From contig NZ_CP029255.1 of NCBI RefSeq assembly GCF_003122385.1, forward strand, positions 2,542,001 through 2,606,000: a DNA stretch of 64,000 nucleotides, given 5' to 3'. The notes under the pieces were generated by a model. It did no database searches, had not been told where the DNA came from, and was given only the letters and a program-made list of their open reading frames with translations. Shown piece by piece: positions 5,701-23,320 of the stretch. The position numbers were made by a program, and so were the translations under genes. How positions within the stretch are numbered: position 1 is the first letter of the stretch; each line of letters begins with the position of its first letter. The DNA is from Flavobacterium crocinum (GTDB taxonomy: Bacteria; Bacteroidota; Bacteroidia; Flavobacteriales; Flavobacteriaceae).

Positions 5701-7689
5701 CTATTTTTCTTTTTTGAGAACCAAAGATGAAAGTGCCGGACTTTTGATTATCCTTTCCATTTCACTGTGGATTATTTCCTGAATTTCGATTTTAATCTGT
5801 AGATAATTTTTCTGGACCATTACATTATCAATTGTGCGAATGACGGGAATCTCTTTATAATTATCGGTCTCTTTTTTTATTTTTTCATGGTCATTAATGA
5901 TCTCGCAATGAAAGGTTTTAAGCTCAATTCGACAGTCCGGGTTATCTGCTGTCATGCCAACAAACTCCCCCGAACTCAGCGTAGAAATCTTTGAAGGAGG
6001 CACTGCCGATTCGAGCTGTCTTGAACGGCTGATGGAGGTATCGCTGCTATTTATCGAAAGACTTTCACGGTCCTGCATTATTTTTCCGAAACGTTCTGAA
6101 AGCTGTTTTGCCGTATCGCCACTGACCTGTCCTGATACTATATTCCCAACGATGTTAATGATCACGTCGGCCTGCTCGCGTCCATAGTCTTTGCGGAGCT
6201 GGCTGAAATCCTGAATGCCAAGACAGGTGCTCACCTTATTGCTTCTTGCCGTTGCAATCAGGCTGTCGATATTGTTGAGGTAGATGGTCGGGAACTCATC
6301 AAAAATCAAACTGCTTTTTAGTTTTCCCTTCTGGTTTACCTGTTTGATAAGACGGCTGACAAATAGGGAAAGCACCGCACCGTAGGTCTGTATTTTCTGC
6401 GGATTATTTCCCATGGAAACAATTTTAGGGTCACAGGGATTATTAATGTCGAGTGTAAAATCACTGCCCGACAATACATAATAGAGCTGTGGGGAGGAGA
6501 GTTTAGCCAGTGAGATTTTTGCAGAAGCTATCTGCCCCTCCAGCTGGTCTACTGCCTCGTTCAGGAATGCACTGACAAAGGGATTGATCAGCACTTCGAT
6601 CTCTTTTTCGGTTCTCAGAAGCGTAAAAAGCTCCTCATAATCAGTCTGGATCATTTCAATTACATGCGGCAGGGTGCAGAACTCACCATTGCTGTATTTT
6701 TTCAGATACCAGATGACCGCTGTGAGAAAATTTATGGGAGATTCCACAAAGAAATCTCCCTGCTTTTTGATCCATTCTCGGTTTAGCCCCATAAGGATTG
6801 TGCGCGCCGATTCGGCGGCATCGGTAATGTCTGCCATTGCTTCAGGATCAAGGGGATTGCAGCGGTGGGTTCGCGAGAGGTCATCAAAATTTATGATGTA
6901 AAATTTTGGCTCCACGGCATAAAGATGCCGGAATTTGAGCCAGGCATTATAGGCGATAATGGTGAGGTCGTCGAACTTAAAATCGTATATGAACATAGAA
7001 AATCCCTTGGCAATGTGCTGGGTGATTACATGGCGGATTACAAAGTATGATTTTCCCGAACCCGGCGTTCCCGGAACCAGAATGCCACGGAAGGGATTGA
7101 TGACGTTAATCCAGCTTTTGCGCACTTTATCTTTGAGGTGATAGCGGGCGGGAAGGTTGACCGAATATTCATTTTCAATTAGCCTTTCTTCCTGCGGGAA
7201 AGTTTCATTTTCCTTATTGAAAATGTCAGACGAACTGAGTCTTCTTCGGATTATGCGAGACAGGAGCGTGCCACCCGAAAGAATCATCAGATAGCCAAAA
7301 GAACACAAGAAAATATACACTGCGGAACAGACTTCGGCATCCGCAAATATTTTAAATGCGGTGTAAGATCCAAAGTAAAACAGCAGCCCCAGCGAGATAT
7401 AGTAAAAAGCAGTTCTAAAATGCAGTTTTTCATCTTTTCTTCCTCTGGCTCCCATAAGGGAAATAGTCAGCAGTCCCAAGGCAAAAAACTTGGATTTATG
7501 AAAGCTGTCCAGAAGGCCTGTGCGATAAATATTTTCCAAGATCCGCTGGGCAAAATCCGGAGTAAGATTCCACTGCCTGAAAGAATGGAAGCAGTAAAAA
7601 TAAAAATGGATGAGCAGAACTGCGATTCCCTTCAGTCTAGTCATGTCTAAAATTTTTCTAAGCGCCTGTTCATTTTCTCCTGTCTGCAT
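5701..7689 (-). CDS. mobC: VirD4/TraG-type conjugative coupling ATPase (MobC, YWFCY domain)
   Basis: Type IV coupling protein that docks the relaxase-DNA complex onto the conjugation channel at the inner membrane and pumps DNA using ATP. The N-terminus has the YWFCY-type membrane region (HFYFYCFHSF) and several hydrophobic segments (LGLLTISLMG, FYYISLGLLFYFGSY, VYIFLCSFGYLMILSGGTLL). Walker A is GTPGSGKS near residue 210 and the Walker B region is SLIFDEFPTIYL. TraG/TraD-like SGQVSGDTAKQLSERFGKI follows. The length of 662 aa is usual for Bacteroidetes MobC. It lies 18 bases behind the relaxase gene and reads the same way, giving the order mobA-mobB-mobC seen in Bacteroides conjugative transposons. 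Confidence 0.9.
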   Translation of the reverse strand: MQTGENEQALRKILDMTRLKGIAVLLIHFYFYCFHSFRQWNLTPDFAQRILENIYRTGLLDSFHKSKFFALGLLTISLMGARGRKDEKLHFRTAFYYISLGLLFYFGSYTAFKIFADAEVCSAVYIFLCSFGYLMILSGGTLLSRIIRRRLSSSDIFNKENETFPQEERLIENEYSVNLPARYHLKDKVRKSWINVINPFRGILVPGTPGSGKSYFVIRHVITQHIAKGFSMFIYDFKFDDLTIIAYNAWLKFRHLYAVEPKFYIINFDDLSRTHRCNPLDPEAMADITDAAESARTILMGLNREWIKKQGDFFVESPINFLTAVIWYLKKYSNGEFCTLPHVIEMIQTDYEELFTLLRTEKEIEVLINPFVSAFLNEAVDQLEGQIASAKISLAKLSSPQLYYVLSGSDFTLDINNPCDPKIVSMGNNPQKIQTYGAVLSLFVSRLIKQVNQKGKLKSSLIFDEFPTIYLNNIDSLIATARSNKVSTCLGIQDFSQLRKDYGREQADVIINIVGNIVSGQVSGDTAKQLSERFGKIMQDRESLSINSSDTSISRSRQLESAVPPSKISTLSSGEFVGMTADNPDCRIELKTFHCEIINDHEKIKKETDNYKEIPVIRTIDNVMVQKNYLQIKIEIQEIIHSEMERIIKSPALSSLVLKKEK

Positions 7690-7707
7690 GCTTTTGATTT
7701 TTAGTTT

Positions 7708-8958
7708 TTAATGATTGTTAGATTGTCCTTTTCTCCTGCTTTTTTTCCGTTTCTTCTTAAGCTGATTGGGAACGTAGTCAGAAGGCGATCCTGCGTAAAG
7801 AACTTCATCGATTATCCGCTGGACTTCAGCTGCGGAAATAAAAGAATTTTGCTGGCTCAGTGGTCTTTCCAAAACAGCCGACTGTTTTCCAAATTCAGAA
7901 GATCCGCCAATACGCTCAAGGAGCCCTTTGGCTGCATAAGCTGGTCCGAGACTGCTTCCGTTGAATACGCATCTGCTGTTATGATCTATGTAGGTCATGC
8001 CGTAGATTAAACCGTTTTCATTTTTTCTAACTACAGCCGTGATGCCTTGATTAGCGAGCCGCGCTTCAAGCTGGGAAAGCGTAATGGAAGGATATTTCAA
8101 AAGCAGCAAATCCAAGGCATTTCGCGTTCTTTTCATGTTTACCACACGCGAAGTTTTGGACGCAGCAAAATTAATTTCAAGCTGGGAAAGGGTAGGCTTG
8201 GAATAAAAGCTGCTGGCTTTTATTGGAATCCCTACAGTCTTTTTATTCTCATCCAGAATCTGGTAGACCAACCCTTTATTCTGAAACATTTTTGAATTTT
8301 CCTTTCCCCTTTCTGCTCTTACATTATACAGGTTTAATACTGCGTTGAGCTCACCCAGCGTGGTGTATTTGTAATGAGGAATGACTGCATTTAGTACACT
8401 GCTGACGGCTCTTTTGGAATCTATTGCACCGTATTTTATTTTTTCAGCATCGATGGCATGAATTTCCCTTGGATCCTGTTTTTTTCTTGAATCTGCGCGT
8501 ACCAGATTAAAAGCAATCTCTAATTCTTTCCGAGCTGTTTCGGATTGGTTTCTTCCAATGTTATGCATGTTGATCCTTGATCCGTCTGCCGTAACATTTA
8601 TCGAAGCAATATGGATGTGCGGATGTCCCGCATCGTGATGCTGGTAGACCAAATAAGGCTGCGATCCGAATCCAATCATGTCCATATAGGAAGAAGCAAT
8701 CTGCATGAGTTTTTCTTTTGATAAATCCGTATCAGAGCGGTCAAAATTCAGTGATATATGCACTGCGGAGCGTTTTACATTATCATTGAGCTGAAGCTGT
8801 TTTAAAAAGACTCCAAGCTTAAAATTTTCTGACATTTTTTCAATATCCATCGGATAATTTCCCTCGCCGATGCATACCGCCTTTCCCTCAGAAACTTTAT
8901 TCTCATTATAAATGAATATGCCTCTTATCGAGCGTCCCGTATTTATGACTGCAACCAT
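7708..8958 (-). CDS. mobB: Relaxase / mobilization nuclease (MobB, MOBP-like)
   Basis: DNA relaxase that nicks one strand at oriT and stays bound to the 5' end during conjugal transfer. The metal-binding three-histidine motif appears as YQHHDAGHPHIHIASIN near residues 103-119. An N-terminal tyrosine candidate lies in the first 20 residues (GIFIYNENKVSEGKA). The C-terminus is very basic (KKKRKKSRRKGQ), as expected for DNA binding. The length of 416 aa is normal for Bacteroidetes relaxases. It overlaps the upstream accessory gene by 16 bases and precedes the coupling ATPase gene, so the three form one operon read away from the proposed oriT. Confidence 0.9.
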   Translation of the reverse strand: MVAVINTGRSIRGIFIYNENKVSEGKAVCIGEGNYPMDIEKMSENFKLGVFLKQLQLNDNVKRSAVHISLNFDRSDTDLSKEKLMQIASSYMDMIGFGSQPYLVYQHHDAGHPHIHIASINVTADGSRINMHNIGRNQSETARKELEIAFNLVRADSRKKQDPREIHAIDAEKIKYGAIDSKRAVSSVLNAVIPHYKYTTLGELNAVLNLYNVRAERGKENSKMFQNKGLVYQILDENKKTVGIPIKASSFYSKPTLSQLEINFAASKTSRVVNMKRTRNALDLLLLKYPSITLSQLEARLANQGITAVVRKNENGLIYGMTYIDHNSRCVFNGSSLGPAYAAKGLLERIGGSSEFGKQSAVLERPLSQQNSFISAAEVQRIIDEVLYAGSPSDYVPNQLKKKRKKSRRKGQSNNH

Positions 8959-9335
8959 TTTTTGGCAAGATTTTCAATGTGTTTTTTAATTTCATCTACC
9001 AGAGAAAAATATCTGTCCCTGTCCGAATCAAGAGCCATAATCCATACTCTTAAATCGGAAATTTCATAAAGGGTATGGAGTTTTCTAACGCTCTGATTGA
9101 AATTATTGCCCATGAGACTAAGCTGGGTCCGCAGCTGGATAAGCTCCTGCAAAAGTTTATCCAATGACTCGTTTCTGTACTTCATTACAATGGGTTTGCG
9201 CAATAGATTTCTTCGCACGAAATCACTGCGTTTGCGGCAGACTGATGCTTTGAAATTCCTGTCAATAATATGCAATTCTTCTTTGGTCAGCCGGATGTGA
9301 AGCCATCTGTTTCTGCCACTGTTTTTCTCTTCCAT
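8943..9335 (-). CDS. mobA: Relaxosome accessory protein (MobA, ribbon-helix-helix type)
   Basis: Small (130 aa) basic protein expected to bind oriT and help the relaxase form the relaxosome. The N-terminal part (WLHIRLTKEELHIIDRNFK) looks like the beta-strand plus helix of ribbon-helix-helix DNA-binding proteins. It is followed by SDFVRRNLLRKP and a helical C-terminal half (LLQELIQLRTQLSLMGNNFNQ) like MobC-type nicking accessory proteins. The NNFNQ motif is common to this family. It starts 65 bases from the inverted-repeat cluster proposed as oriT and its end overlaps the relaxase start. Name usage (mobA, mobC) varies between elements, so the role is surer than the symbol. Confidence 0.8.
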   Translation of the reverse strand: MEEKNSGRNRWLHIRLTKEELHIIDRNFKASVCRKRSDFVRRNLLRKPIVMKYRNESLDKLLQELIQLRTQLSLMGNNFNQSVRKLHTLYEISDLRVWIMALDSDRDRYFSLVDEIKKHIENLAKKWLQS

Positions 9336-9733: not shown

Positions 9734-10024
9734 ATGATTACAGCAAATGATGCAGCCAAGGTTTTTGATACGGTGCTAAGTATCCCTGGCATGAATGAGA
9801 CGGTGAAAATGGATCTGAAAATTTCACGAAAAAATGTGCTGCTTTTAAGCCATCTGATACAGGACGGGCTAAAGATAAGGGAAGGATCTTCGGTTCTTCT
9901 GGAGAGCGTAAGCGAGCAGGGAAAAACAGAATTGGAGAGCCTCTCCCAAGACTGCCTTCAGAAGGCAGGGCTTATAGAACTGCATGAAAAACTTGCAGAA
10001 ATCAGCGCCTCCATAAAAGGCTGA
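9734..10024 (+). CDS. Hypothetical helical protein
   Basis: A 96-residue soluble protein that I do not recognise. It has no signal peptide. It is largely helical, with a leucine-rich middle (KNVLLLSHLIQDGLKI). The name-like pattern FDTVLSIPGMNETVKMDLKIS opens the chain. It reads away from the mobilization genes and is followed at once by a clear terminator hairpin (10051-10089), which supports it as a real transcription unit. Small genes in this position, between the oriT and the cargo, are common in Bacteroidetes elements, but their function is not known to me. Confidence 0.6.
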   Translation: MITANDAAKVFDTVLSIPGMNETVKMDLKISRKNVLLLSHLIQDGLKIREGSSVLLESVSEQGKTELESLSQDCLQKAGLIELHEKLAEISASIKG

Positions 10025-10246: not shown

Positions 10247-11758
10247 ATGATAAGCCTCCGCACCAAATATTTTATCAGAGACACTATATGTCTGCTCTTT
10301 GTCCTGCTGTTCATTTACGCTTCGGCAAGCAAATTAATGGATTTCCAGCATTTTAAAATAGAGCTTGGACAGTCACCGCTTCTGAGTGCATTTGCCGATC
10401 AGTTTTCCGTATTTGTGCCGGTATTGGAAATTATTATCTGCGTGCTTCTTTTAATCCCCAGATTTAAGCTTGTGGGACTTTTTGCAGCGTATGGGCTAAT
10501 GGTTATGTTTACGGCCTATATTTTTATAATCCTGCACTACACCTCTTTCGTACCTTGTTCCTGCGGAGGTGTTTTGGGAAAAATGAGCTGGAATGCCCAT
10601 CTAGCTTTTAATGTTGTTTTTATTTTCTTAGGGATAGCTGCAATACTGCTTAGCGCAAATTTTGATAAGCAAGACATCAGAACAAGTTACAGGAAAAGCT
10701 TTATTTGGATTTTTAGTATTGCTTTCAGCGGTACTGCTGCGGTTATCTTTTTATTTATCTGTTCGGAACGGATAATGCATTATGAAAATCCTTTTATTAG
10801 AAGGTATCCCCGCCATGCAGCAATGTTTCGCAATGAGCTGGACCTAAAATATAATTCTTATTATTTTGCAGGCACTTCCGGCGGCCGAATTTATCTGGGC
10901 AATTCTACAGCACCTCTTCAGCTTTTTTCCGTAGATAAAAATTTAGGAAACCAGAAGGTTGACAGAATTATTTTCAATGGTGGGAAAATATTATTCCACA
11001 GACCAACTGTAAGAGTTCAGAATCATTATTTCTATTTAACTGACGGAACGGTTCCAGTTATTTTCAGAGGAAGCTCAAAAGATTGGACCCTAAACAAAAA
11101 ATTCAATGGACTGCCTTATTTTGATCAGGCGCTGCCTATGGACAGCAGCAGAATAGTGCTTCGATCCAATAAGGGAAATGATCTTGCCAATATTCTAGGT
11201 GTATTTGATAATGATAATGGGCGGTTAAACTACAATGAACGGCTGCTGCAAAAACAGCTAGACGGCGTTTTTGATACGGATGGAAGACTTTTATACGACG
11301 AAACTACCCAAAAAATAGTGTATGTGTATTTTTATCGCAATCAGTTTATCGCTGCAGGAAAAGATGCTGAATTAATTTCGCGAAGCCGCACAATCGATAC
11401 CACTAGCCATGCCAGGTTAAAAGTTTCTTATGTGAAAAACAGTACGGAAAGGAAAATGTCTGCTCCTCCCTATATTGTGAATGCGGGTGCTGCCGTCTAT
11501 GGAAATCTTCTTTTTATCCATTCGAAAGTGAGAGGGAAATTTCAGGATGAGACAACCTGGAATCAGGCTTTCATAATTGATGTTTACGATATAAGCAGAC
11601 AGGCTTATATAATGAGTTTTCCAATTTATAAAATCAAAGATGAAAAGCTAAAAAACATCATGGCAACGGGAGACCATTTATATGCCATCATCGGAAATTC
11701 ATTAGTAGTTTATGATTTCAAGGCAATTCTAAAAAAAGAAATGAAAAGTGCTGAATAA
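10247..11758 (+). CDS. MauE/DoxX-type redox membrane protein fused to a large exported domain
   Basis: Residues 1 to about 175 form five hydrophobic segments of the MauE/DoxX redox-associated family, with a CSCGG motif (FVPCSCGGVLGKMSW) in the loop before the fourth segment. MauE-type proteins help form disulfides in exported partners. Residues from about 180 to 503 form a soluble domain, probably outside the membrane, with repeated strand-turn patterns (FYLTDGTVPVIFRG, LFIHSKVRGKF, HLYAIIGNSLVVYDF) that suggest a beta-propeller; that is inference. The next gene, 97 bases on, codes for a tiny four-cysteine exported protein. I infer that this protein oxidises or handles that partner. The domain order MauE-propeller is unusual for the family. 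Confidence 0.75.
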   Translation: MISLRTKYFIRDTICLLFVLLFIYASASKLMDFQHFKIELGQSPLLSAFADQFSVFVPVLEIIICVLLLIPRFKLVGLFAAYGLMVMFTAYIFIILHYTSFVPCSCGGVLGKMSWNAHLAFNVVFIFLGIAAILLSANFDKQDIRTSYRKSFIWIFSIAFSGTAAVIFLFICSERIMHYENPFIRRYPRHAAMFRNELDLKYNSYYFAGTSGGRIYLGNSTAPLQLFSVDKNLGNQKVDRIIFNGGKILFHRPTVRVQNHYFYLTDGTVPVIFRGSSKDWTLNKKFNGLPYFDQALPMDSSRIVLRSNKGNDLANILGVFDNDNGRLNYNERLLQKQLDGVFDTDGRLLYDETTQKIVYVYFYRNQFIAAGKDAELISRSRTIDTTSHARLKVSYVKNSTERKMSAPPYIVNAGAAVYGNLLFIHSKVRGKFQDETTWNQAFIIDVYDISRQAYIMSFPIYKIKDEKLKNIMATGDHLYAIIGNSLVVYDFKAILKKEMKSAE

Positions 11759-11855
11759 AATGCAGCAATTATAATATACCGGCCAGTATCAGGAAATAAA
11801 GATCGAACACCTGTAGAAAAAAGTAGATCAGAGTTTTAATTTAATATTTATTATT

Positions 11856-12131
11856 ATGAAAACGCAATTTTTAAAAAATGCTGTTCCATTTGCAGTACTG
11901 GCATTTGGACTTTCAGGAGCCTTTGTTACTACTTCAATGCAGAAAGCTTCTGCAGCAGCTCCAGAGCCAGGATATCAATTGGATGCTTTGGGTAATTGTA
12001 CCAATATTGAAGCAGACTGCGACACTCAGGAAAATGATTTTGTCTGCCGTATCAATGGCACTACAGGAGCGCAGGCTTGGGGAAAAGACAGTAATGGCGA
12101 CTGTGTGGTAAAACTATATCGCCCCGAGTAA
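11856..12131 (+). CDS. Small exported cysteine-rich protein, DUF6520-like
   Basis: A 91-residue protein with a clear N-terminal signal (MKTQFLKNAVPFAVLAFGLS, small residues up to about ASAAAPEPG). The mature part of about 55 residues has four cysteines (NCTN, ADCD, FVCR, GDCV), enough for two disulfides. This is the layout of the DUF6520 small proteins of Bacteroidetes, whose function is unknown. It ends 29 bases before a strong terminator. Upstream is the MauE-type gene; the convergent neighbour is a secreted S9 peptidase followed by SusD/SusC. It may be a secreted peptide precursor, a substrate of the redox protein, or a surface factor; I cannot tell which. Confidence 0.75.
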   Translation: MKTQFLKNAVPFAVLAFGLSGAFVTTSMQKASAAAPEPGYQLDALGNCTNIEADCDTQENDFVCRINGTTGAQAWGKDSNGDCVVKLYRPE

Positions 12132-12160
12132 ACAAATTGAATTATTAACCCATATAATGA

Positions 12161-12187
12161 TGCCGTTCCAATGGAACGGCATTTTAA
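12161..12187 (+). terminator. Rho-independent terminator
   Basis: ATGCCGTTCC and GGAACGGCAT form a perfect 10-base-pair stem with a three-base loop, followed by TTTAAAT. It ends the unit of the small cysteine-rich gene and separates it from the convergent peptidase gene. Confidence 0.85.
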
Positions 12188-12199
12188 ATTTCTAGAGAA

Positions 12200-14845
12200 T
12201 CATAGTGTCCCAGCTGTAATCCACTCGGCTTTATTTTGATCTTTCAGAAAGTAATCAAACCATTGCAATATGCGAAGCGATAAATCTTCCTGATTCATTG
12301 GATCCATCAGCGTATGGTCTTCTTTAGGGTATTGAAGAAAGATGCATTTCTTGCCCAGCCTGCGGAGCGCCAGATAGTATTCCATACTTTGAAAAGGGTC
12401 TACCTGCGTATCTTCTTTCCCGCACCACATCAGCAGAGGGATATTTAAATTTGTGACAGATTCCAAAGGAGAATTTCGATCAAAATCCAAGCGGTCGCTG
12501 AACGGAGTTTTTTTTCCCAGACGCCATCCGCCACTGGAAAAACGCCACATTTCCGGCATAGCCATATTGGCTCCAAAAGTCAAAAATCTGCGGGTAAGAT
12601 CAAAAATTCCTCCGCTGGCAACTGCGGTAGCAAACAGATCTGAATGATTGATAACAAAAGCAGTCTCATAGCCTCCGAATGAATGTCCCATCAAAGCTAT
12701 CCTTTTTGGATTTACAAGCCCCATTTCAATTATTTTTCTGGTGCCTGATTCAACGCAGTCAAGTGTTGAAAAGCCGACGTTTTCATTTTCATGAATTATA
12801 TCCGGCCGGAATACAAAATAGCCTTCTGCTGTGAAAACAGTGGAGTTGTAGCCTGGTTCGTTAAGCAGTGTCGGATTGATGTACTGATGCAGGAGGTGCG
12901 ACTGCTTCTCATATATTCCCACTATCATCGGATAATCTCTAGATGGCTTATAATCTGCAGGATAATATAGAACACCTTTTAGATTTTGTTTTTTTGAATT
13001 CTGAAAGGTGACCAATTCAGTTTTTCCCCAGAAATAATTTACCTGTTGCGGATTGCTCTGCACTATGACGCGAGTTTCACGTTCCCCTTTTTTAGAAATG
13101 ATTCTGGGAGGGATATTAAATTTCTGCTCAACCATTACAGCAGTTTTGGTTTTCACATTGAAGATGAATCTATCAACATAGGAATCTGTAAACAAAATTT
13201 CCTTTTCTCCTTTAAAACGGCTCCAACTCCAATAGCCAGTCTTTCCGTCATCGCCTGCAGCACTGAGATACAGTTCATCATTGAGATCGAAAGTTTCATT
13301 AAGCGGTGCATCATATAATGATTTTCTAAAGTTCTGCCTATCGACATGAAGACGGAATCTGATTTTTTTCTCCCTTCCACGGGTGAGTCTTCTGGCCGAA
13401 CTACCGTCAGGTTTCAGCGCCCAAATATCAAATTCATCATAAAGCAGGATTTCATCGTTGCTGCGGCTCCAGCCGGGATTTCCATACGGATCGTCCGATG
13501 CCAGCAGATTTACCTTTCCGTAAAAAGGATATTTGAGTTTTCCGCTTAAATTGACATGTGTTTTCCTTTTTACATTGTAAGCCCACCAGTCATTGTCTTT
13601 AAAATAGGAAATGTATTTTCCGTTAGACGAACCATACATGTATTCTAGTGCAGCAGATTGTTTTAAAAGGAGGGTATCTTTTTGGAAATTATCCAGATCT
13701 AATATGTAGTAATCCCTTGGGCCGCGATGTTCAAATTGAGGCTCGTATTGTTTGGGATTTGAAAGTACCGCATAGCTCAAATCCCGACTCAGCATAACCG
13801 ATGGAAAAGTCTCAGAAGTAATCGGAAGCAGGGATTCCTTCTTAGGTTTCCAGAGCATTAATTTAGGACTCAAGTCAAATCTGCCATAGCGCTCGTTCTG
13901 GCCATACACCCATTTATCATTCCCATTCCATATTTCAACACTGGGTTTTTCAATGGTGTCCTTTTTTTTGTCTGGTCCTACAGAAAACAGAACCTTTTCC
14001 AGATCATCTGCAATCAATATCGGATTCAGCGCCGAGTTAATGATTCTGCTTTGCGGCTTAAGGCCTTTATGGCTGCCGGCATCAAGAACATAAAGCCTGC
14101 TTTGTGTAACGACATAATAGTATAAGTGGCTGGAAGATTTTTTACCTGACTGCCCATTGAAAACCAAGGCCCTGCTGTTTCTGCTCCAGGCTGAAAATTT
14201 ATATCCAATCTTGCTGTCTTGAGCCATGCTTTTTAGCATCTGGTTTTTGCGAAGGTCAAATAGCAATGCGGAATTTTTCCCATCACTGTAAAAGGAATAA
14301 GCAAGCAATTCTCCGTTTGGACTTAAGGAGAAATCCGACACACCTGTAATCTCATTTTTGCTGTCTGCCAAAGGACTCTTAGTAATCAGTTTTTCTGTGT
14401 TGTCTTTTTCCTTACATAGGATGATAAGCTTATTTAATGCCATAGAGTATTCATATCGGCTAACACTTTCAAAACTTTCGTTCCTGCCAGTCACAGGGTC
14501 CAATACATGCAGCTCATTTTTTTTCATAAAAATGAAGATGTTTTCCTTTGTAAAAAGTGATTTTGAGCCCGAAGGCAGCGCGTATTTTTCATTGCCGGCG
14601 GTACTGGCGACAAAAAGTGTATCTGCATCGTTTTCATACTGCACAGCATAGCTGATCCAATGTGAATCGGGTGAGGATTTGTCCAGTCTAAGCTGTCCCC
14701 AAAGCTTATAGTCATTAAAAGTGAGTTTTCTCTTTTGCACCGCCTGTCCCGAAACGGGACAGGTTACTAATGGCAAAATAAAAAAAACATGAGCCAAAGC
14801 TCTAAAAAGGGTTATTGCAATATTTTTAATACCAGTGTGAATCAT
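12200..14845 (-). CDS. Exported S9 family (prolyl oligopeptidase-like) peptidase
   Basis: Serine peptidase of the alpha/beta-hydrolase S9 type, which cuts short peptides. I start at the ATG at 14845, 10 bases after the susD stop; it opens with a signal peptide (ALAHVFFILPLVTCPVSGQA). The 50 extra codons upstream run through the susD gene and are rejected. The N-terminal two thirds show WD40-like propeller repeats (SPNGELLAYSFY, SRNSRALVFNGQ). The C-terminal catalytic domain has GHSFGGYE (Ser near residue 720), KEDTQVDP (Asp near 812) and PKEDHTLMD (His near 843). At 881 aa it is longer than typical S9 enzymes (about 700). Tight coupling to susCD points to peptide import or to maturation of the nearby cysteine-rich protein. 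Confidence 0.85.
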   Translation of the reverse strand: MIHTGIKNIAITLFRALAHVFFILPLVTCPVSGQAVQKRKLTFNDYKLWGQLRLDKSSPDSHWISYAVQYENDADTLFVASTAGNEKYALPSGSKSLFTKENIFIFMKKNELHVLDPVTGRNESFESVSRYEYSMALNKLIILCKEKDNTEKLITKSPLADSKNEITGVSDFSLSPNGELLAYSFYSDGKNSALLFDLRKNQMLKSMAQDSKIGYKFSAWSRNSRALVFNGQSGKKSSSHLYYYVVTQSRLYVLDAGSHKGLKPQSRIINSALNPILIADDLEKVLFSVGPDKKKDTIEKPSVEIWNGNDKWVYGQNERYGRFDLSPKLMLWKPKKESLLPITSETFPSVMLSRDLSYAVLSNPKQYEPQFEHRGPRDYYILDLDNFQKDTLLLKQSAALEYMYGSSNGKYISYFKDNDWWAYNVKRKTHVNLSGKLKYPFYGKVNLLASDDPYGNPGWSRSNDEILLYDEFDIWALKPDGSSARRLTRGREKKIRFRLHVDRQNFRKSLYDAPLNETFDLNDELYLSAAGDDGKTGYWSWSRFKGEKEILFTDSYVDRFIFNVKTKTAVMVEQKFNIPPRIISKKGERETRVIVQSNPQQVNYFWGKTELVTFQNSKKQNLKGVLYYPADYKPSRDYPMIVGIYEKQSHLLHQYINPTLLNEPGYNSTVFTAEGYFVFRPDIIHENENVGFSTLDCVESGTRKIIEMGLVNPKRIALMGHSFGGYETAFVINHSDLFATAVASGGIFDLTRRFLTFGANMAMPEMWRFSSGGWRLGKKTPFSDRLDFDRNSPLESVTNLNIPLLMWCGKEDTQVDPFQSMEYYLALRRLGKKCIFLQYPKEDHTLMDPMNQEDLSLRILQWFDYFLKDQNKAEWITAGTL

Positions 14846-14855
14846 GATTATTTCT

Positions 14856-16235
14856 TTAATATCCCGGATTTTGCGGAAGAAGTTTTGGATTGTTTCCCAG
14901 TTCGGTCTGCGGAATTGGGAAAAGGCGGTCTTCAGTATTCCATCCTGCTTTGACAGGCTGTAATTTAGCATCAAGCATGTCCAGCCTTTTAAGGTCAAAA
15001 AAGCGATGTCCGTATTCCGTAAAAAGTTCCCATCTTCTTTCCTCCAGTACAGCGCTAAGCAAATCTTCTTTGGAGAGAGCCTGTGTTCCTGGCAGACCAG
15101 AACGCAGCCTAATTTTATTTAGGTCTTCTTTTGCACCTATTAGATCGCCCTGCATTGCTCTGGCTTCAGATCTTATAAGGTATTGTTCTGCCATCCTCAG
15201 CACTACCGAGTATTCTTTTGAGACTGAAGTATTGGTCTGTTCTTTATATTTATACGGATGATACCAGATTTCACCTGCTTTTGATACGGCTTTCAACCAT
15301 TTTGATTTTCTCTGGTCAAGCGCAGCAAATGAACTGGTGAGTATCGTGCTTGCCGCAACAGATGCGGGAGGGCCGGCTGTAAATATGAAGATAGGCCCCT
15401 CTTTCGTATTTTGTCCTGCGGAGGTTGATTCAAACTGCCAGATCGTTTCTTTTGAGTTGATTAAAAAGACATTGTTGAGATCTGATTCGAGAGCAAACAA
15501 GGCAGTACTGTTTATGAGGGCAGATGCTTCATTTGCCGCTTCAGGATATGACTTGTTATAGAGGTAAATTCTGGACAGCAATGCACGACATACAAATTTA
15601 TTGGCTCTGCCTCTCGAAGCACTGCTATAGGTTTCAGGCAATAGCGCCGATGCAGTCTGAAGGTCGGAAATTATGCTTTTGTATATTTCCGCGCTTCCGA
15701 CTTTGCCAGCCGTGTTGTTCTTCTGATAGTCTGTTGTAGTAACATAAGGCACATCACCAAAAAGATTAGTCAGATAAAAATGCACCACCGCCCTAAGAAA
15801 AAGCGCTTCCCCTAAAAGCTGTTTCTTATTTTCCGTTGTAATCCCGCTGCTGTTATCAAGACCTTCAATTACTGCGTTAGCAGCATAAATCTGATTGTAG
15901 GATGCGTTCCATAAGTTTGATATTACTGTCGATCCGGGCAGAAGTGCGTTATTATAAAAGGCCATATTGGTGCTTGTTGCACCTCCGTATGCAGTCAGCT
16001 CGTCGGTGTAATTTCCCAATATATTGGAAAGTCCGGTACCGGTGCCTGTAAGCAGTCCAGTATCACGAAGTTTAGCGTAAACGTTTATCAACGCTGCATT
16101 TGCCGTCTCATAGTTTTCAAAAACGGAACTGCTTGCAAGCTGTGATTTTGGCAGATCTGTTTCGACAAATGAATCGCATGAGGTGAATGTCAAAAGGACA
16201 ATCAGTATTGGAAGTTGTTTATAGAATATTTTCAT
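14856..16235 (-). CDS. SusD/RagB family outer-membrane lipoprotein
   Basis: Surface lipoprotein that binds a nutrient and acts as lid for its SusC partner. The signal peptide ends in a lipobox (VLLTFTSCDSF), so the Cys would be lipidated. SusD marks are SSVFENYETANAALINVYAKL near the start, LGEALFLRAVVHFYLTNLFGDVPYV in the middle, and ERRWELFTEYGHRFFDLKRL followed by LFPIPQTELGNNPKL at the end. The length of 459 aa is a little short but normal. It starts 10 bases behind the susC stop and is followed 10 bases on by the peptidase gene, so susC-susD-peptidase are one operon. The substrate cannot be read; the peptidase suggests peptides rather than sugars. Confidence 0.9.
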   Translation of the reverse strand: MKIFYKQLPILIVLLTFTSCDSFVETDLPKSQLASSSVFENYETANAALINVYAKLRDTGLLTGTGTGLSNILGNYTDELTAYGGATSTNMAFYNNALLPGSTVISNLWNASYNQIYAANAVIEGLDNSSGITTENKKQLLGEALFLRAVVHFYLTNLFGDVPYVTTTDYQKNNTAGKVGSAEIYKSIISDLQTASALLPETYSSASRGRANKFVCRALLSRIYLYNKSYPEAANEASALINSTALFALESDLNNVFLINSKETIWQFESTSAGQNTKEGPIFIFTAGPPASVAASTILTSSFAALDQRKSKWLKAVSKAGEIWYHPYKYKEQTNTSVSKEYSVVLRMAEQYLIRSEARAMQGDLIGAKEDLNKIRLRSGLPGTQALSKEDLLSAVLEERRWELFTEYGHRFFDLKRLDMLDAKLQPVKAGWNTEDRLFPIPQTELGNNPKLLPQNPGY

Positions 16236-16245
16236 GATTATAAGT

Positions 16246-19200
16246 TTAAAAGGTTAGCTGGATCCCTGCTGTAACTGTTTTAAGAGGAGGGAGAAACCCG
16301 TAACTGGTAAATTCCGGATCGCCGTCTTTGTATTTTGTGAAAGTCAGAAGGTTCTGCCCCTGTAAAATAACCTTGCAGCTAGTTTCTGTCAGACTAAGAG
16401 GCAGCTGATAGGTGAGGGCGATATTTTTGAGCCTTATAAAGGACGAGTCGGAAATCAAGGCGTCGCTTTCAGAAAAATAAGAGTCGGCATTTACCGCTGC
16501 ACTGTTGACACCGGTAGTATATATCTGATATGGTCTGCTGTCGCCTGACTGGAGCCATGCGTCAGCGATCCTCGCCGGCTGATTGGACATCGACCCTGCA
16601 GCTCCCATAGGAATCAAACGGTTCTGCTGTTTTGTAAATTGAAATAGAAAATCTAGATTCCAATTCTTATAAGCCAGCTGGTTTTGAAGACCGCCATAAT
16701 ATTTTGGATTTAGGTTTACGGCTTTCTGCCTGTCTAGCGGATAAGAAATTTTGCCATCCCCATTTATATCCTCAAATTCATATATTCCTGTCTGCACATT
16801 TACTCCTTTGAGCTGATAAACTAGGGCAATATTTAGCGGCTGTCCGATCCTGTATTTCTGGCTGTAGGTCGAGCTTTCAAGCCCTGGAAACGAAACCAGT
16901 TCGTTTTTTGGGAAAGTAAGATTGAAATTGGTCTGCCACTGAAAGTTTCCCCTTTTAATATTTGCTGTGCGCAAAGTCAATTCCAGACCCGAGTTTGCGA
17001 CTTCCGCATTCAGGTTTGCCTGAATGGAAGCAAAACCGGTAACGCCGCTCAGCGGTATGCCGACCAGCTGATTTGAAGAACGGTTGGAATACCATGAAAA
17101 GGTTGCAAAGATTCTGTCATTAAGAAAACCAGTTTCCAGAGCCAATTCCAATTTTTTATTTATTTCCCATCCAAAATCGGGATTGAACAGTCTTGAAGGC
17201 TGCATTCCTATGGTTCCATTGTAGCTGATTCCTGTAATTGTATAGGTATCCAGATATTGGTGATCTCCAATCTGGTCGTTTCCGGTCGTGCCGTAACTGC
17301 CTCTGATTTTTCCAAAGCTCATCCATGAACTGTTCTTTAAGAATTTTTCATTGCTGAAGAGCCAGGCAAATCCTGCCGCTCCGAATGTGGCGAACTGCCG
17401 GCCGGGCCCAAATCGGCTCGATCCGTCGCGTCTGGCGGTAAGATTTATGATGTAGCGCTGCTGATAGCTGTAAAACAAACGGGCAAAAAAGGCCTGATAT
17501 CGGTATTGCGTCTCATCGTCTGCAAGGATGGATACGGTCTTTGCTGCCGCAAGATTGTAAATCAAACTGTTTGAACTAAAACCTGTACCAGACTGGTATA
17601 ATGCGCTGTTGATCTGGTTTTGGAAAGTTGCTCCAATCAGCAATCCTGCTTTTCCGAAATCACCATCTTTCTCCCAATTAAGCTGCGGTTCAACAATCCA
17701 GGATGACCTGCCGGTAATATTGCTAAACATCGAAGAACGCGCACTGCTTATATTATAGATGGGATTATAGATTGTGGAGGGTGTGGTTCGGGTTTCATTA
17801 GTTTTCAGGTCTGTGTATCCAAAGCTGCTTTTAGCGGTTATCTCCGGCGTAATTTTATATGACAGCAGTGCGTTTGCAACAAGATCTTTTGTCTTGGCCT
17901 TAAATTTAGAATTCAGCATTGCAAGAGGATTCTGCCAGGTTTGATTCTCCCAGTTTAAACTTCCATCTGGATTATAAAGTGAAGGGGCATTTGGCGCAAG
18001 CGTCTGTGCGGTATAAGTCAGTTCATTTGCAGGAAGGTTGCTGTTCTGTATATTATATACTCCCGAGAAATTAATCTGAAATCTATCATCTTTTGAAACG
18101 TGGTTGAGGCTTAACTGGACTCCTCCTTTTTTATATTTGAAATCGCCTGTGTAGACAGTGGTTTCCTGATGATAGTTTCCGCCGATTAGGAATTGTGTTT
18201 TATCAGATCCTCCCGATACGGAACCTTGCAGATCGTTGAGCTGAGAAGTGCCTCCCATCAGTTCTTTCTGCCAGTCGGTGTATCGATTCTGGTTCCAGGT
18301 ACCGTTTATATCGTAATCCGAAGCGCCGTACGTCGTAATGCCGTCATTTATAAACGCCTGTTTTCTCATAGCAACATATTGCTGCGTATCCATCAGTTTC
18401 ATGAATTTTGTTGCTTTTCCTGCTCCGGTAGAGCTTGAGAGAGTGAACTTTGTACGGCCCGCTTTTCCTTTTTTGGTAGTTATAAGGACCACGCCATTGG
18501 CACCCCTTGATCCATAAATGGAAGTGGCATCGGCATCTTTAAGCACTTCAATGCTTTCTATTGTTTCGGGATTAATGCTGTTTAAAGGGCTTGTACTGCT
18601 AGGATATATAGTGGAAGTCTGCGAATATCCGATAGGGTCAGAAGCATAGGGAACTCCGTCTATAATATAAAGCGGGTTATTTGCCGCTGCCCGAAGGCTA
18701 TTCTGTCCTCTGATTTTGATATCAAATCCGCCTCCCGGCACACCTGTGGTCTGGATTATATTCACTCCTGCCATTCGGCCCTGCATGGCGGCAAGGATAT
18801 TGGTTACGGGCTGGGTTTCGATGTCTTTAGAAGTAATTCGTGCAATATTGCCGGTGCGCTCGCTTTCTTTAACCGAATAATATCCGGCATTAATCTTCAC
18901 TTCCTGCAGGGTTGTGGTATCAAACTGCATCACAATGGTGATTTTGGTTCTCCCCGCGACTGGCATATTAAGAGTTTTAAATCCCAGAAATGAAATAATA
19001 AGCGTGTCGCTCGGCGACACATTGATTGAGAACTGCCCATTATAATCTGTAATGGAACTATTATTTGATCTGCTTTTTACAGCAATAGTTACGCCGGGAA
19101 GGGGAGTTATGCCGTCGGTGACTGTTCCCTGTACCTGATGCTGTAAAATGGTTTTGAAATGCCGTTTTGAAATTTTGGCGTACGACGATGAAAAAGATAA

Positions 19201-19266
19201 CAGTATGCCAGCAAAAAATAGGCAATAAAGAGCTCTTCCATCCTTAAATAATGAAAAATAATTCAT
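16246..19266 (-). CDS. SusC/RagA family TonB-linked outer-membrane transporter
   Basis: TonB-dependent outer-membrane barrel that imports a ligand handed over by its SusD partner. After the signal sequence comes a carboxypeptidase-like repeat (VQGTVTDGITPLPGVTIAVK, then YNGQFSINV). The plug follows, with NILAAMQGRMAGVNI, GGFDIKIRGQNSL, NPLYIIDGVPY and the SusC motif IEVLKDADATSIYGSRGANG. The rest (about 280-1006) is a beta-barrel ending in Phe. The length of 1006 aa is usual. No TonB box-free truncation or frameshift is seen. The upstream gap holds no clear TTG/TAnnTTTG promoter and no sigma/anti-sigma pair, so control may depend on the TPR-AraC regulator further right; that is inference. Confidence 0.92.
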   Translation of the reverse strand: MNYFSLFKDGRALYCLFFAGILLSFSSSYAKISKRHFKTILQHQVQGTVTDGITPLPGVTIAVKSRSNNSSITDYNGQFSINVSPSDTLIISFLGFKTLNMPVAGRTKITIVMQFDTTTLQEVKINAGYYSVKESERTGNIARITSKDIETQPVTNILAAMQGRMAGVNIIQTTGVPGGGFDIKIRGQNSLRAAANNPLYIIDGVPYASDPIGYSQTSTIYPSSTSPLNSINPETIESIEVLKDADATSIYGSRGANGVVLITTKKGKAGRTKFTLSSSTGAGKATKFMKLMDTQQYVAMRKQAFINDGITTYGASDYDINGTWNQNRYTDWQKELMGGTSQLNDLQGSVSGGSDKTQFLIGGNYHQETTVYTGDFKYKKGGVQLSLNHVSKDDRFQINFSGVYNIQNSNLPANELTYTAQTLAPNAPSLYNPDGSLNWENQTWQNPLAMLNSKFKAKTKDLVANALLSYKITPEITAKSSFGYTDLKTNETRTTPSTIYNPIYNISSARSSMFSNITGRSSWIVEPQLNWEKDGDFGKAGLLIGATFQNQINSALYQSGTGFSSNSLIYNLAAAKTVSILADDETQYRYQAFFARLFYSYQQRYIINLTARRDGSSRFGPGRQFATFGAAGFAWLFSNEKFLKNSSWMSFGKIRGSYGTTGNDQIGDHQYLDTYTITGISYNGTIGMQPSRLFNPDFGWEINKKLELALETGFLNDRIFATFSWYSNRSSNQLVGIPLSGVTGFASIQANLNAEVANSGLELTLRTANIKRGNFQWQTNFNLTFPKNELVSFPGLESSTYSQKYRIGQPLNIALVYQLKGVNVQTGIYEFEDINGDGKISYPLDRQKAVNLNPKYYGGLQNQLAYKNWNLDFLFQFTKQQNRLIPMGAAGSMSNQPARIADAWLQSGDSRPYQIYTTGVNSAAVNADSYFSESDALISDSSFIRLKNIALTYQLPLSLTETSCKVILQGQNLLTFTKYKDGDPEFTSYGFLPPLKTVTAGIQLTF

Positions 19267-21175: not shown

Positions 21176-21244
21176 AAACTACAGATATCAGATACAAATA
21201 TTGTTACATTAGTTCTATTCTTATATATATCAGTATGTTTCTCT

Positions 21245-21322
21245 CCAGCCCCGATTGAAGCAGAAATCCTTTTTGGCAAGGGCTATGCCAAAAAGATTGC
21301 AGCGAAAGCGGGATAAGCTGCC
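21245..21322. repeat. Intergenic hairpin motif of the GATTGAAGC...GCGAAAGCGGG type
   Basis: CCCCGATTGAAGCAG opens and GCAGCGAAAGCGGGA closes a block whose centre has CTTTTTGGCA pairing with TGCCAAAAAG. A block of similar layout is present at 48213-48264 on the chromosome. From memory such blocks recur between genes in Flavobacterium genomes; I cannot confirm the copy number here. Confidence 0.55.
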
Positions 21323-21646: not shown

Positions 21647-23320
21647 TCACGAATTCTCTTTTTTCAATTCCTTAAGGAAATAACTGACCGAAATTCCTGT
21701 TCTGGAGTGGAATGCATTGGTGAATCGGGGAGTGGAAGTAAAACCGGCTTCCTCAGCCAGGGAGCCAATGGAGTAATTTCTATGCAAGCTCGTGTTTCGC
21801 AGCAGCTCCACGAGATAGTCAATTTTTAGGTCATTGATATAATCGGCAAAACGCTTGCCGCTGCGATGGTATATCACTTTTGAGAGGTATTTGCTGTTTG
21901 TATTAAATCGTACAGTCAAGGTTGCTAGTGTAGCCTCTTTGTGCAGGAATTTTTTATCCCTTTCAAATTTTTCAAGGTGTCTTATTATCTGCTGTACAGT
22001 CTCGTGCGAAATATCGGTTATCTCGAATTTATCGGGTGACTGTTTCTGTATGTTGCTCTTTTCATTTTTTTCCAGAAGAAGATCAAATTTGGCCTTATTG
22101 CGCTTTTTGGTTTCAAAGTGGTTATAGGTCCCGTAAATGACAGCGGAGAACAGAACGACAACCACGCTGATCAGAATAACGTCGTAATATTTCTCCTTTA
22201 CAAGCTGCTGCTGTATTTTTTCTTTTTCCAACAGAATTTCCTTCGTGTCATACTGCTTATGGATTTTTCCCATTAAATACGTATTTGCATCTGTTAATAC
22301 AGAGTCCGCTTTTAAAAGCTGGTCCATGTAATAAAGCTGGGATTTCAGATTATTTTCCTTCTTGTAATATTTGATCATTAATTCAAAGACTTCCCTTAAA
22401 TCCGGACGGATGTAGCCTTTCTCAATAAATGCTTTTTCCACTTTTTTGAAGTAGGGCACTGCTTTTGCAGGAAGCTGAAGTTTCCAATAGTTTTTTCCTA
22501 TATAAAAATTTGCAATTGATACGTTGGCAAATTCTGTCATGCTGTTCAGCTGAGGTATGACCTCCTGAAGCATTTGGATGGAAGTATGATAGTTATTTAG
22601 GAAGAACTGGTTGATTCCTTCCGAATGTTTAAAAAACAATTCCATTTCAGGAATTTTCAGCCGTTCACATTCTGCAAGCCCTAACGTATTAGTCTGGGAA
22701 CATCTGCTGTAATCGCCAACCTTATTATAGCAGACACTTAATGAATGCAGTGAATTCAAATAAGGGCGAGCCTGATTTTTTTTAAAATATGCAAGGCATT
22801 CATTAAAGAGTGAAATGGCCTCATCATAAAAGCCGAGATAATATTTGATCTGCGCAATATGATATTTGGTTTTGTAGATCAAATAATCATTTTCAGTTTT
22901 GGAAATGCTTTCGTTTGCCTTAATGTAATAGTCATATGCTTTCACATAATTTTTTTGGCTGTAATAGACGATCCCTTTCGATAGATTAGCCGAGCCGATC
23001 AGCTCATCGCTTTTTGATTTTTCTGCTGCGAATACCATACTGTCAGCATATTTCAAGCGAAGATTCATTGGAGACTGATGCAGTATGTTTTGATAAGCAT
23101 TCACTGTCTCTTCATAATTCTTCTCCTTTCTGGCTTTCTTTAAATAGGCAAATAAATAAGGAGCTGCTTTCAGACTATCATTTTTGTATTCATAAATCCT
23201 ATCATCCAAATAGGTATATGTTTTAAAAAGAAGAGAATCGGGAACTGATTTTGAAATCTTCTGCGCATTTAATGAATGGACTAAAAATAAAAACAGCAAG
23301 ACAGGTAATGTACATTTCAT
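21647..23320 (-). CDS. TPR membrane sensor with AraC-type HTH output
   Basis: Likely membrane-bound transcription regulator. It has a signal peptide (MKCTLPVLLFLFLVHSLNAQ), then a periplasmic region of about 340 residues with TPR repeats (LSKGIVYYSQKNYVKAYDYYIKA-like units and AIADFY-like helices). One membrane segment follows (YYDVILISVVVVLFSAVIYGTY, near 375-395). The cytoplasmic C-terminus is AraC-like, with TLTVRFNTNSKYLSKVIYH, then SIGSLAEEAGFTSTPRFTNAF and an F-x-x-x-G-I-S-V-S-Y-F end. Such one-protein sensors are common in Flavobacteriia. The nearby SusCD cassette or lipoprotein gene is the likely target, by position only. It is divergent from the lipoprotein gene at 23653. Confidence 0.85.
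   Translation of the reverse strand: MKCTLPVLLFLFLVHSLNAQKISKSVPDSLLFKTYTYLDDRIYEYKNDSLKAAPYLFAYLKKARKEKNYEETVNAYQNILHQSPMNLRLKYADSMVFAAEKSKSDELIGSANLSKGIVYYSQKNYVKAYDYYIKANESISKTENDYLIYKTKYHIAQIKYYLGFYDEAISLFNECLAYFKKNQARPYLNSLHSLSVCYNKVGDYSRCSQTNTLGLAECERLKIPEMELFFKHSEGINQFFLNNYHTSIQMLQEVIPQLNSMTEFANVSIANFYIGKNYWKLQLPAKAVPYFKKVEKAFIEKGYIRPDLREVFELMIKYYKKENNLKSQLYYMDQLLKADSVLTDANTYLMGKIHKQYDTKEILLEKEKIQQQLVKEKYYDVILISVVVVLFSAVIYGTYNHFETKKRNKAKFDLLLEKNEKSNIQKQSPDKFEITDISHETVQQIIRHLEKFERDKKFLHKEATLATLTVRFNTNSKYLSKVIYHRSGKRFADYINDLKIDYLVELLRNTSLHRNYSIGSLAEEAGFTSTPRFTNAFHSRTGISVSYFLKELKKENS

Follow-up and report, generated by a model that had tools for sequence, protein, structure and literature searches.

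The window, a stretch of 64,000 nucleotides of Flavobacterium crocinum DNA, contains five adjacent genes arranged as two convergent units, a MauE fusion and a small four-cysteine protein on one strand and a peptidase and a SusD/SusC pair on the other, with a predicted hairpin between the two units. The genes and neighboring features are as follows.

5701..9335, minus strand: ICE backbone with T4SS coupling protein, relaxase and MobC-like protein (Pfam T4SS-DNA_transf, Relaxase and MobC_2)
9734..10024, plus strand: 96-aa protein, a marker for the cassette's fixed position in the ICE (relatives upstream of MauE in relaxase loci)
10247..11758, plus strand: membrane redox protein of the MauE type carrying a fused beta-propeller, predicted periplasmic (Pfam MauE, PF07291, 97.6 bits against a gathering cut-off of 27 bits)
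11856..12131, plus strand: exported 91-aa DUF6520-type small protein with Cys48, 55, 64 and 83 (alignment and DUF6520 matches)
12159..12183, plus strand: 11-pair hairpin followed by a T-rich stretch, possible terminator (terminator-like scan, consensus match only)
12200..14845, minus strand: exported S9-family serine peptidase, ATG start at 14845 (Peptidase_S9, 88.2 bits against a gathering cut-off of 22.6)
14856..16235, minus strand: SusD-type surface lipoprotein (Pfam SusD-like_3 and SusD_RagB; SusD tree)
16246..19266, minus strand: SusC-type TonB-dependent outer-membrane transporter (TIGR04056, SusC/RagA, 689 bits against a curated cut-off of 368)
21647..23320, minus strand: TPR protein with an AraC-type DNA-binding domain, possible regulator (Pfam TPR_12 and HTH_18)

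The layout of the five-gene unit is conserved in many related bacteria. In the open-access literature that we searched, the individual families are known and the unit, its exchangeable enzyme slot and its place on ICEs are undescribed; no paper on DUF6520 was found there. The gene for the 96-aa protein had no match in Pfam, NCBIfam or PADLOC. A Flavo-1 RNA (21243-21319; Rfam RF01705, 64.7 bits) lies between the cassette and the tra genes.

Conservation of the unit and its linked genes

The MauE fusion alone served as bait in a genome set with one genome per species, and the best 80 of 121 relatives were taken; fetched in this way, the sample consists of fusions fairly similar to that of the window. 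The complete layout, with MauE-propeller and small gene converging on S9, SusD and SusC, was present in 69 of the 80 loci, including some with split genes (S9 in L060; SusD in L011 and L031; MauE in L023, L028 and L079), and both SusC and SusD were found in 71, two of which carry another enzyme than S9. Only a C-terminal piece of S9 remained in five loci (one, L054, at a contig end), S9 and SusCD were both missing in three (L050, at a contig end, and L069 and L077, neither at a contig end, which have MauE and the small gene and no SusCD within 10 kb), and L064 has MauE alone. Peptidase and SusCD are deleted in L001, L006, L021 and L025, in which the frames of MauE and the small gene are open. 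A small ORF with a signal-like start, one being chosen per locus, followed directly 3′ of MauE in 79 of the 80 loci. The preliminary description had placed these five genes together, the first two reading towards the last three; this observation was confirmed, and the counts strongly support treating the five as one unit. Two loci (L003, 10530-12957, and L004, 5201-7626) contain five tandem, mostly diverged small-protein genes between MauE and S9.

The linkage was also kept in samples that were not assembled around the MauE fusion of the window. In a one-per-genus sample of 120 Flavobacteriaceae genomes, 17 had a match to the MauE profile and 16 to the small-protein profile, all of these among the 17, and 26 of 28 small-gene places lay at most 0.6 kb from a MauE match (lists compared by hand); the two exceptions are a second copy 4.4 kb off in G019 and a place at a contig end (G094:C10). 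The Pfam DUF6520 model, which is independent of our own alignment, matched 31 of 395 Bacteroidota genomes, and 28 of the 31 places above its cut-off were within 1 kb of a MauE match, as were six of nine below it. One further place, G440:C21, had first been counted as a miss because the MauE search scored three candidates per genome, and on inspection it proved to be a full cassette, the 29th of 31. A Lys/Ala-rich 91-aa ORF with four cysteines in G367, where neither MauE nor SusCD was recognized within 19.5 kb, is possibly a solitary family member, and the match in G411 falls in a longer frame, with neither MauE nor SusCD in its 3.2 kb locus. In the window's own genome the DUF6520 model scored nothing, which marks a limit of its sensitivity. 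The small gene is therefore rarely found without MauE, an outcome in favor of the unit proposed in the preliminary description.

A direct homology search with the small protein of the window gave only nine matches, and the family was revealed through the neighbors of MauE. Beyond the signal-like stretch, each of the 79 small proteins has four cysteines and no more (the ORF filter demanded only at least three), spaced by 5-6, 7-8 and 12-24 residues with L069 as the sole exception (7, 11, 18). Across 67 aligned distinct sequences M1, A22 and the four cysteines are the only invariant residues, so the cysteines, the conservation of which had been in question, turned out to be nearly all that is conserved. 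DUF6520 was matched at E ≤ 0.01 by 64 of these 67; the window protein reached 20.4 bits (PF20130, E 7e-4; gathering cut-off 25.4 bits) and is, judged by its sequence, related to the family as a member that stays under the cut-off. Its structure model is of modest confidence (pLDDT 69), a fold search with this model returned no match at E ≤ 0.001, and the family profile had no match at E ≤ 1 among solved structures. No exporter was recognized in the cassette, and nothing was found that would carry the small protein out of the periplasm. NVEALA proteins, which are found beside propellers in Bacteroides, are a possible parallel.

The Pfam MauE domain was matched at E ≤ 0.05 by all 44 aligned fusions, and the CSCGG motif (residues 104-108 in the window protein) is invariant in them, from C104 through C106 to both glycines. 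In the structure model (pLDDT 89.3) the propeller spans residues about 184-497, and both the motif and the fused propeller are predicted to face the periplasm. Linkage and predicted topology together provide good support for the view that MauE likely forms the disulfides of the small peptide. MauE, a propeller and a small cysteine protein also occur together in the mau cluster, where the small subunit of methylamine dehydrogenase has two tryptophans that form the TTQ cofactor. The same combination here could thus be read as an enzyme of that kind, in which propeller and small cysteine-rich subunit carry a Trp-derived cofactor matured with the help of MauE. This is highly improbable: the small protein of the window has a single tryptophan, not conserved among the aligned sequences, and was therefore not assigned to the mau system, and 10 of 25 Flavobacteriaceae cassettes (L098-L107) have a MauE without a recognized propeller, the propeller in that set being variously fused to MauE, separate or not recognized. 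MauE also occurs in candidate precursor-peptide (RiPP) clusters of Streptomyces, where the available text on decRiPPter (PMC7794033) reads MauE as a modification enzyme and offers disulfide formation as a speculation. These clusters belong to another phylum than the cassette, and SusCD is not mentioned in that part of the source.

An exchangeable enzyme between the core genes

A second set comprised 27 loci from 15 Flavobacteriaceae genomes, two of which (L097 and L111) run into contig ends and were excluded, leaving 25 cassettes; the SusDs of L108 and L112 are identical to those of L046 and L053 in the first set and count as repeats. All 25 uncut loci show SusC, SusD and a further gene X converging on the small gene and MauE, with extra genes in between in L093. 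X was classified in 18 cassettes: it is an S9 peptidase in four, an M16 peptidase in L088, L094, L103 and L105, a met-zincin in L086 and L098, a redoxin/TlpA-like protein in L087, L090, L092, L095, L096, L099 and L102, and a PD40-amidohydrolase in L091. Similar swaps occur in the first set (M16 in L076, met-zincin in L038), and among loci from other taxonomic orders of the class L261 has a redoxin plus a subtilase (S8), and in L255-L260 and L262 MauE and the small gene directly face SusD. The constant core is MauE and the small protein facing SusCD, and the enzyme after SusD is exchangeable or missing. Two features of the preliminary description are narrowed by these loci. The S9 enzyme stands as the peptidase of the window and of 69 of the 80 first-set loci, but the slot also holds M16, met-zincin, S8, redoxin and amidohydrolase proteins; the four cysteines hold for all 79 MauE-linked small proteins of the first set, but in the other taxonomic orders six of seven loci (L255-L260 and L262) have two, and only L260 has four.

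In the S9 enzymes, S722, D812 and H844 are invariant across 30 aligned sequences, the catalytic triad being assigned by motif. Clusters for lasso peptides with an AtxE2-type isopeptidase bring together a ribosomal peptide, the enzyme that matures it, a peptidase of the S9 type and a TonB-dependent transporter, which is also the plan of the cassette. By profile, the cassette S9 resembles other S9 peptidases more closely than it does AtxE2, and the lasso isopeptidase model (NF033523) was rejected for the window enzyme at 102.8 bits against a curated cut-off of 400.

That unrelated peptidases or a thiol enzyme occupy one slot suggests that the task of the slot is to open a disulfide-bonded protein. 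The reading that we prefer, at a probability of roughly 0.4, is that the two convergent operons form one unit in which an exported peptide oxidized by MauE is recognized by a dedicated SusCD pair and opened by the slot enzyme. The first operon would provide the exported four-cysteine DUF6520-type peptide together with its dedicated oxidant, and MauE, with its periplasmic CSCGG motif and propeller, would form the disulfides of the peptide. From the second operon would come a SusCD pair dedicated to the matured peptide, either the cell's own or that of a neighbor, or to a carrier of it. The slot enzyme would then open the peptide once it is in the periplasm, in most cases as a protease (S9, M16, met-zincin, S8) and in some lineages by thiol chemistry (redoxin). 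On this reading the small peptide might leave the cell and might be both the ligand of SusCD and the substrate of the slot enzyme, steps that are more tentative than its oxidation. The preliminary description had likewise proposed a unit that makes or matures a cysteine-rich peptide, or else one that imports peptides after cutting; this interpretation is partly supported. Linkage and predicted topology speak well for the unit and for a probable maturation by MauE, and the halves that would serve maturation and import are conserved together.

Partial distance correlations over 53 non-redundant complete cassettes, with the other genes allowed for, gave values for the small protein of 0.23 with MauE and 0.29 with S9, a height that none of 499 permutations reached in either case; no link emerged with SusD (-0.11) or SusC (0.03; 139 of 499 permutations). 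As SusD and SusC do not co-vary with the small protein, a ligand-receptor pair is not favored; the signal for MauE and S9 could come from the adjacency of the genes. The small protein and the peptidase, both exported, adjacent and co-varying in distance, might instead be an inhibitor or periplasmic guard and its enzyme, inhibitors often being small, disulfide-bonded and fast-evolving, as this protein is. We regard such a role as improbable, since a single small family would then need to act on peptidases of unrelated kinds as well as on redoxins and an amidohydrolase, and the family is present even where the slot beside SusD is missing.

The SusCD pair and possible peptide import

The nearest solved relatives of the window SusC are SusC homologues and RagA. 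A tree built by a quick method with 56 SusDs from cassettes and 39 from controls places the former in one group (SH-aLRT 99) that includes a single control, L210, a SusC-SusD-redoxin locus with an M16-like neighbor (M16 called by eye) in which neither MauE nor the small gene was recognized. Because L210 falls inside the group without these two genes, it may show the ancestral form. The SusD of the window scored at least 232 bits on the cassettes of the tree, against 215 and then 108 for the best controls; SusDs from the loci of other taxonomic orders, which are outside the tree, scored 26-57 bits, like controls. The SusD of Sphingobacterium multivorum (L070) groups with one from Chryseobacterium, which also points to transfer.

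Oligopeptide importers of the RagAB/SusCD kind resemble the cassette in their SusC/SusD-type pair, RagA being among the nearest solved relatives, and in the peptidases beside SusCD in peptide loci; the cassette SusDs differ in forming a separate group. To our knowledge, RagAB has neither a private MauE nor a private small cysteine protein. Import of peptides is established for RagAB and BT2263-2264 according to work cited in the available text of PMC10132118, which also reads SusCD loci with peptidases in F. collinsii as oligopeptide loci. The pair and its peptidase could accordingly bring in foreign peptides as food, giving the ICE a growth benefit, with the small protein as a periplasmic or surface helper. 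This is possible, if rather unlikely, in our view. The relationship of SusC to RagA and the nature of the nearest control, L210, which pairs SusCD with a redoxin and an M16-like protein, fit such feeding, but it leaves unexplained why an almost unconstrained four-cysteine protein and a private oxidase should accompany this SusCD group, or why alleles should be swapped at a single ICE site, as described below. Under the preferred reading of a matured and recognized peptide, the cassette offers a number of SusCDs a concrete ligand candidate and ties DUF6520, an orphan MauE lineage and a SusCD group without known ligand into one testable unit.

A near-constant place in one lineage of conjugative elements

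Markers of conjugation, counted as RteC or as relatives of the coupling protein, relaxase, MobC and tra proteins of the window, occurred somewhere in the locus in 39 of the 80 cassettes of the first set and 16 of the 27 of the second, compared with none of 40 control SusD loci drawn from 14 of the 15 genomes behind the second set. This first count took stretches centered on MauE in the cassettes but on SusD in the controls, and markers were therefore recounted around SusD: a limit of 9.5 kb gave 26 of 71 cassettes in the first set, 14 of 25 in the second and none of the 39 controls, a limit of 8 kb gave 11, 4 and again no control, and a limit of 6 kb gave none of either kind, counts that are biased against the cassettes, as no cassette locus spans the full 8 or 9.5 kb on both sides of SusD, and that are non-independent because the cassettes come from related species.

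A search with the relaxase in 199 genomes of the genus matched 70, and 40 of the 41 best places outside the window were read, some of which are also in the MauE-found set. MauE and the small gene stand beside the 96-aa gene in 28 of the 40, 24 of them with S9, SusD and SusC, and in all 28 a relative of the 96-aa protein is encoded just upstream of MauE. In four of these (L216, L219, L227 and L237) SusCD is gone and MauE and the small gene are open. Among the 22 best-scoring relatives the cassette occupies one fixed place in 21, and the 22nd, L230, has kept a truncated MauE. The 96-aa gene occurs without MauE in 5 of the 40 loci, including L239, the second such element in the genome of the window, and neither gene is present in six (among them L242, only 3.6 kb long). 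A second copy of the tRNA-Ser 3′ end that would mark the other end of the ICE was found neither in the window (up to 3 mismatches) nor in the genome (exact search).

Between the window, L005 and L016 the backbone is highly similar (coupling protein 92-93% identical, relaxase 83-85%, MobC 81-82%, 96-aa protein 92-94%), whereas the cassette is diverged (MauE 45-53%, S9 32-50%, mature small protein 22-39%, SusD 53-57%, SusC 59-69%), with identity dropping after the 96-aa gene and ahead of MauE; L067 and L079 behave likewise (coupling protein 88%, MauE 45%). Diverged cassettes on a conserved backbone mean that whole cassettes appear to be exchanged at one ICE site, and faster divergence of the cassette alone is possible instead. 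The unit is often located on ICEs, and in the lineage of the window it is a near-constant part of the ICE with exchangeable alleles. Its description as ICE cargo understates the fixed place in this lineage.

Of the 107 cassette loci, 46 encode a relative of one AraC-type regulator, in most cases immediately ahead of MauE; a response-regulator query matched 14 loci and the TPR-AraC protein seven, and the four kinases examined carry TPRs; the TPR-AraC gene of the window may be linked to the cassette. Such regulators would be the readers if the peptide were a signal of the ICE itself: carriers would release the oxidized peptide, kin would import it through SusCD and cut or reduce it, and a regulator of the AraC type, a TPR kinase pair or a TPR-AraC protein would set ICE transfer, on the model of PhrI of ICEBs1. 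The fixed ICE place, alleles 22-69% identical on a backbone 81-94% identical, the frequency of the regulators and the five tandem small genes of L003 and L004 agree with a signal. We nonetheless find it doubtful, as the tie between regulators and conjugation is only putative, ICEs of the same lineage exist without the cassette (the five loci with a 96-aa gene and no MauE) and SusC and SusD do not co-vary with the peptide. In the more general form, with Bacteroidota ICEs sensing neighbors of the same type by means of a typed, disulfide-locked peptide, its recognition by a matching SusCD and its periplasmic cutting or reduction, the idea seems to us similarly unlikely. If the ICE reading held, the cassette would encode a cell-cell signal in Bacteroidota; we know of no peptide pheromone in this phylum. 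A typed peptide would make it a Gram-negative counterpart of RapI-PhrI with an outer-membrane TonB transporter as receptor. The available text of PMC8032392 describes RapI-PhrI of ICEBs1 as an ICE-encoded system in which a secreted peptide reports the abundance of carriers. ICEBs1 is a Bacillus element without SusCD, and a signaling role of the cassette is, by comparison, only putative.

C39 peptidases are of the kind that matures bacteriocins. Proteins with an N-terminal C39 peptidase domain (L256, 5348-6712, by Pfam; L259, 5410-6849, by similarity) are encoded near a MauE-DUF6520-SusCD locus of another taxonomic order and near RteC, which is only a hint at an export route. Together with the small size and the diversification of the cysteine peptide they would fit a bacteriocin-like product against which the slot enzyme gives self-protection. 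This is quite improbable, since an uptake receptor of its own would bring the producer no gain; MauE, the small protein and S9 of the window also had no match in PADLOC, which covers defence and not bacteriocins. An aminotransferase protein of 800 aa that also gives a weak FemAB-like match (L101, 5304-7706) has relatives in 29 of the 107 loci, mostly beside RteC.

In L006, L021, L025, L054, L216, L219, L227 and L237 a break interrupts the S9 gene at its catalytic GHS(F/Y)GG(Y/F) motif or no more than a few codons away, and other DNA adjoins the C-terminal piece. The junctions on the partner side recur as well: residue 673 of a protein corresponding to the window's VirB4/TraG-type ATPase in L006 and L219 (and in L001, with another S9 break), residue 760 of this ATPase in L237, residue 204 of TraJ in L227 and, with a break in MauE, in L230, and residue 97 of a DUF4138 protein in L216. 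The breaks in L021 and L025 join DNA without genes for the VirB4/TraG-type ATPase, TraJ or DUF4138, and that of L054 lies at a contig end. The recurrence of both breaks and partner-side junctions suggests site-specific cutting or recombination, and not all of the breaks need be assembly errors, because L021 lies in a chromosome record.
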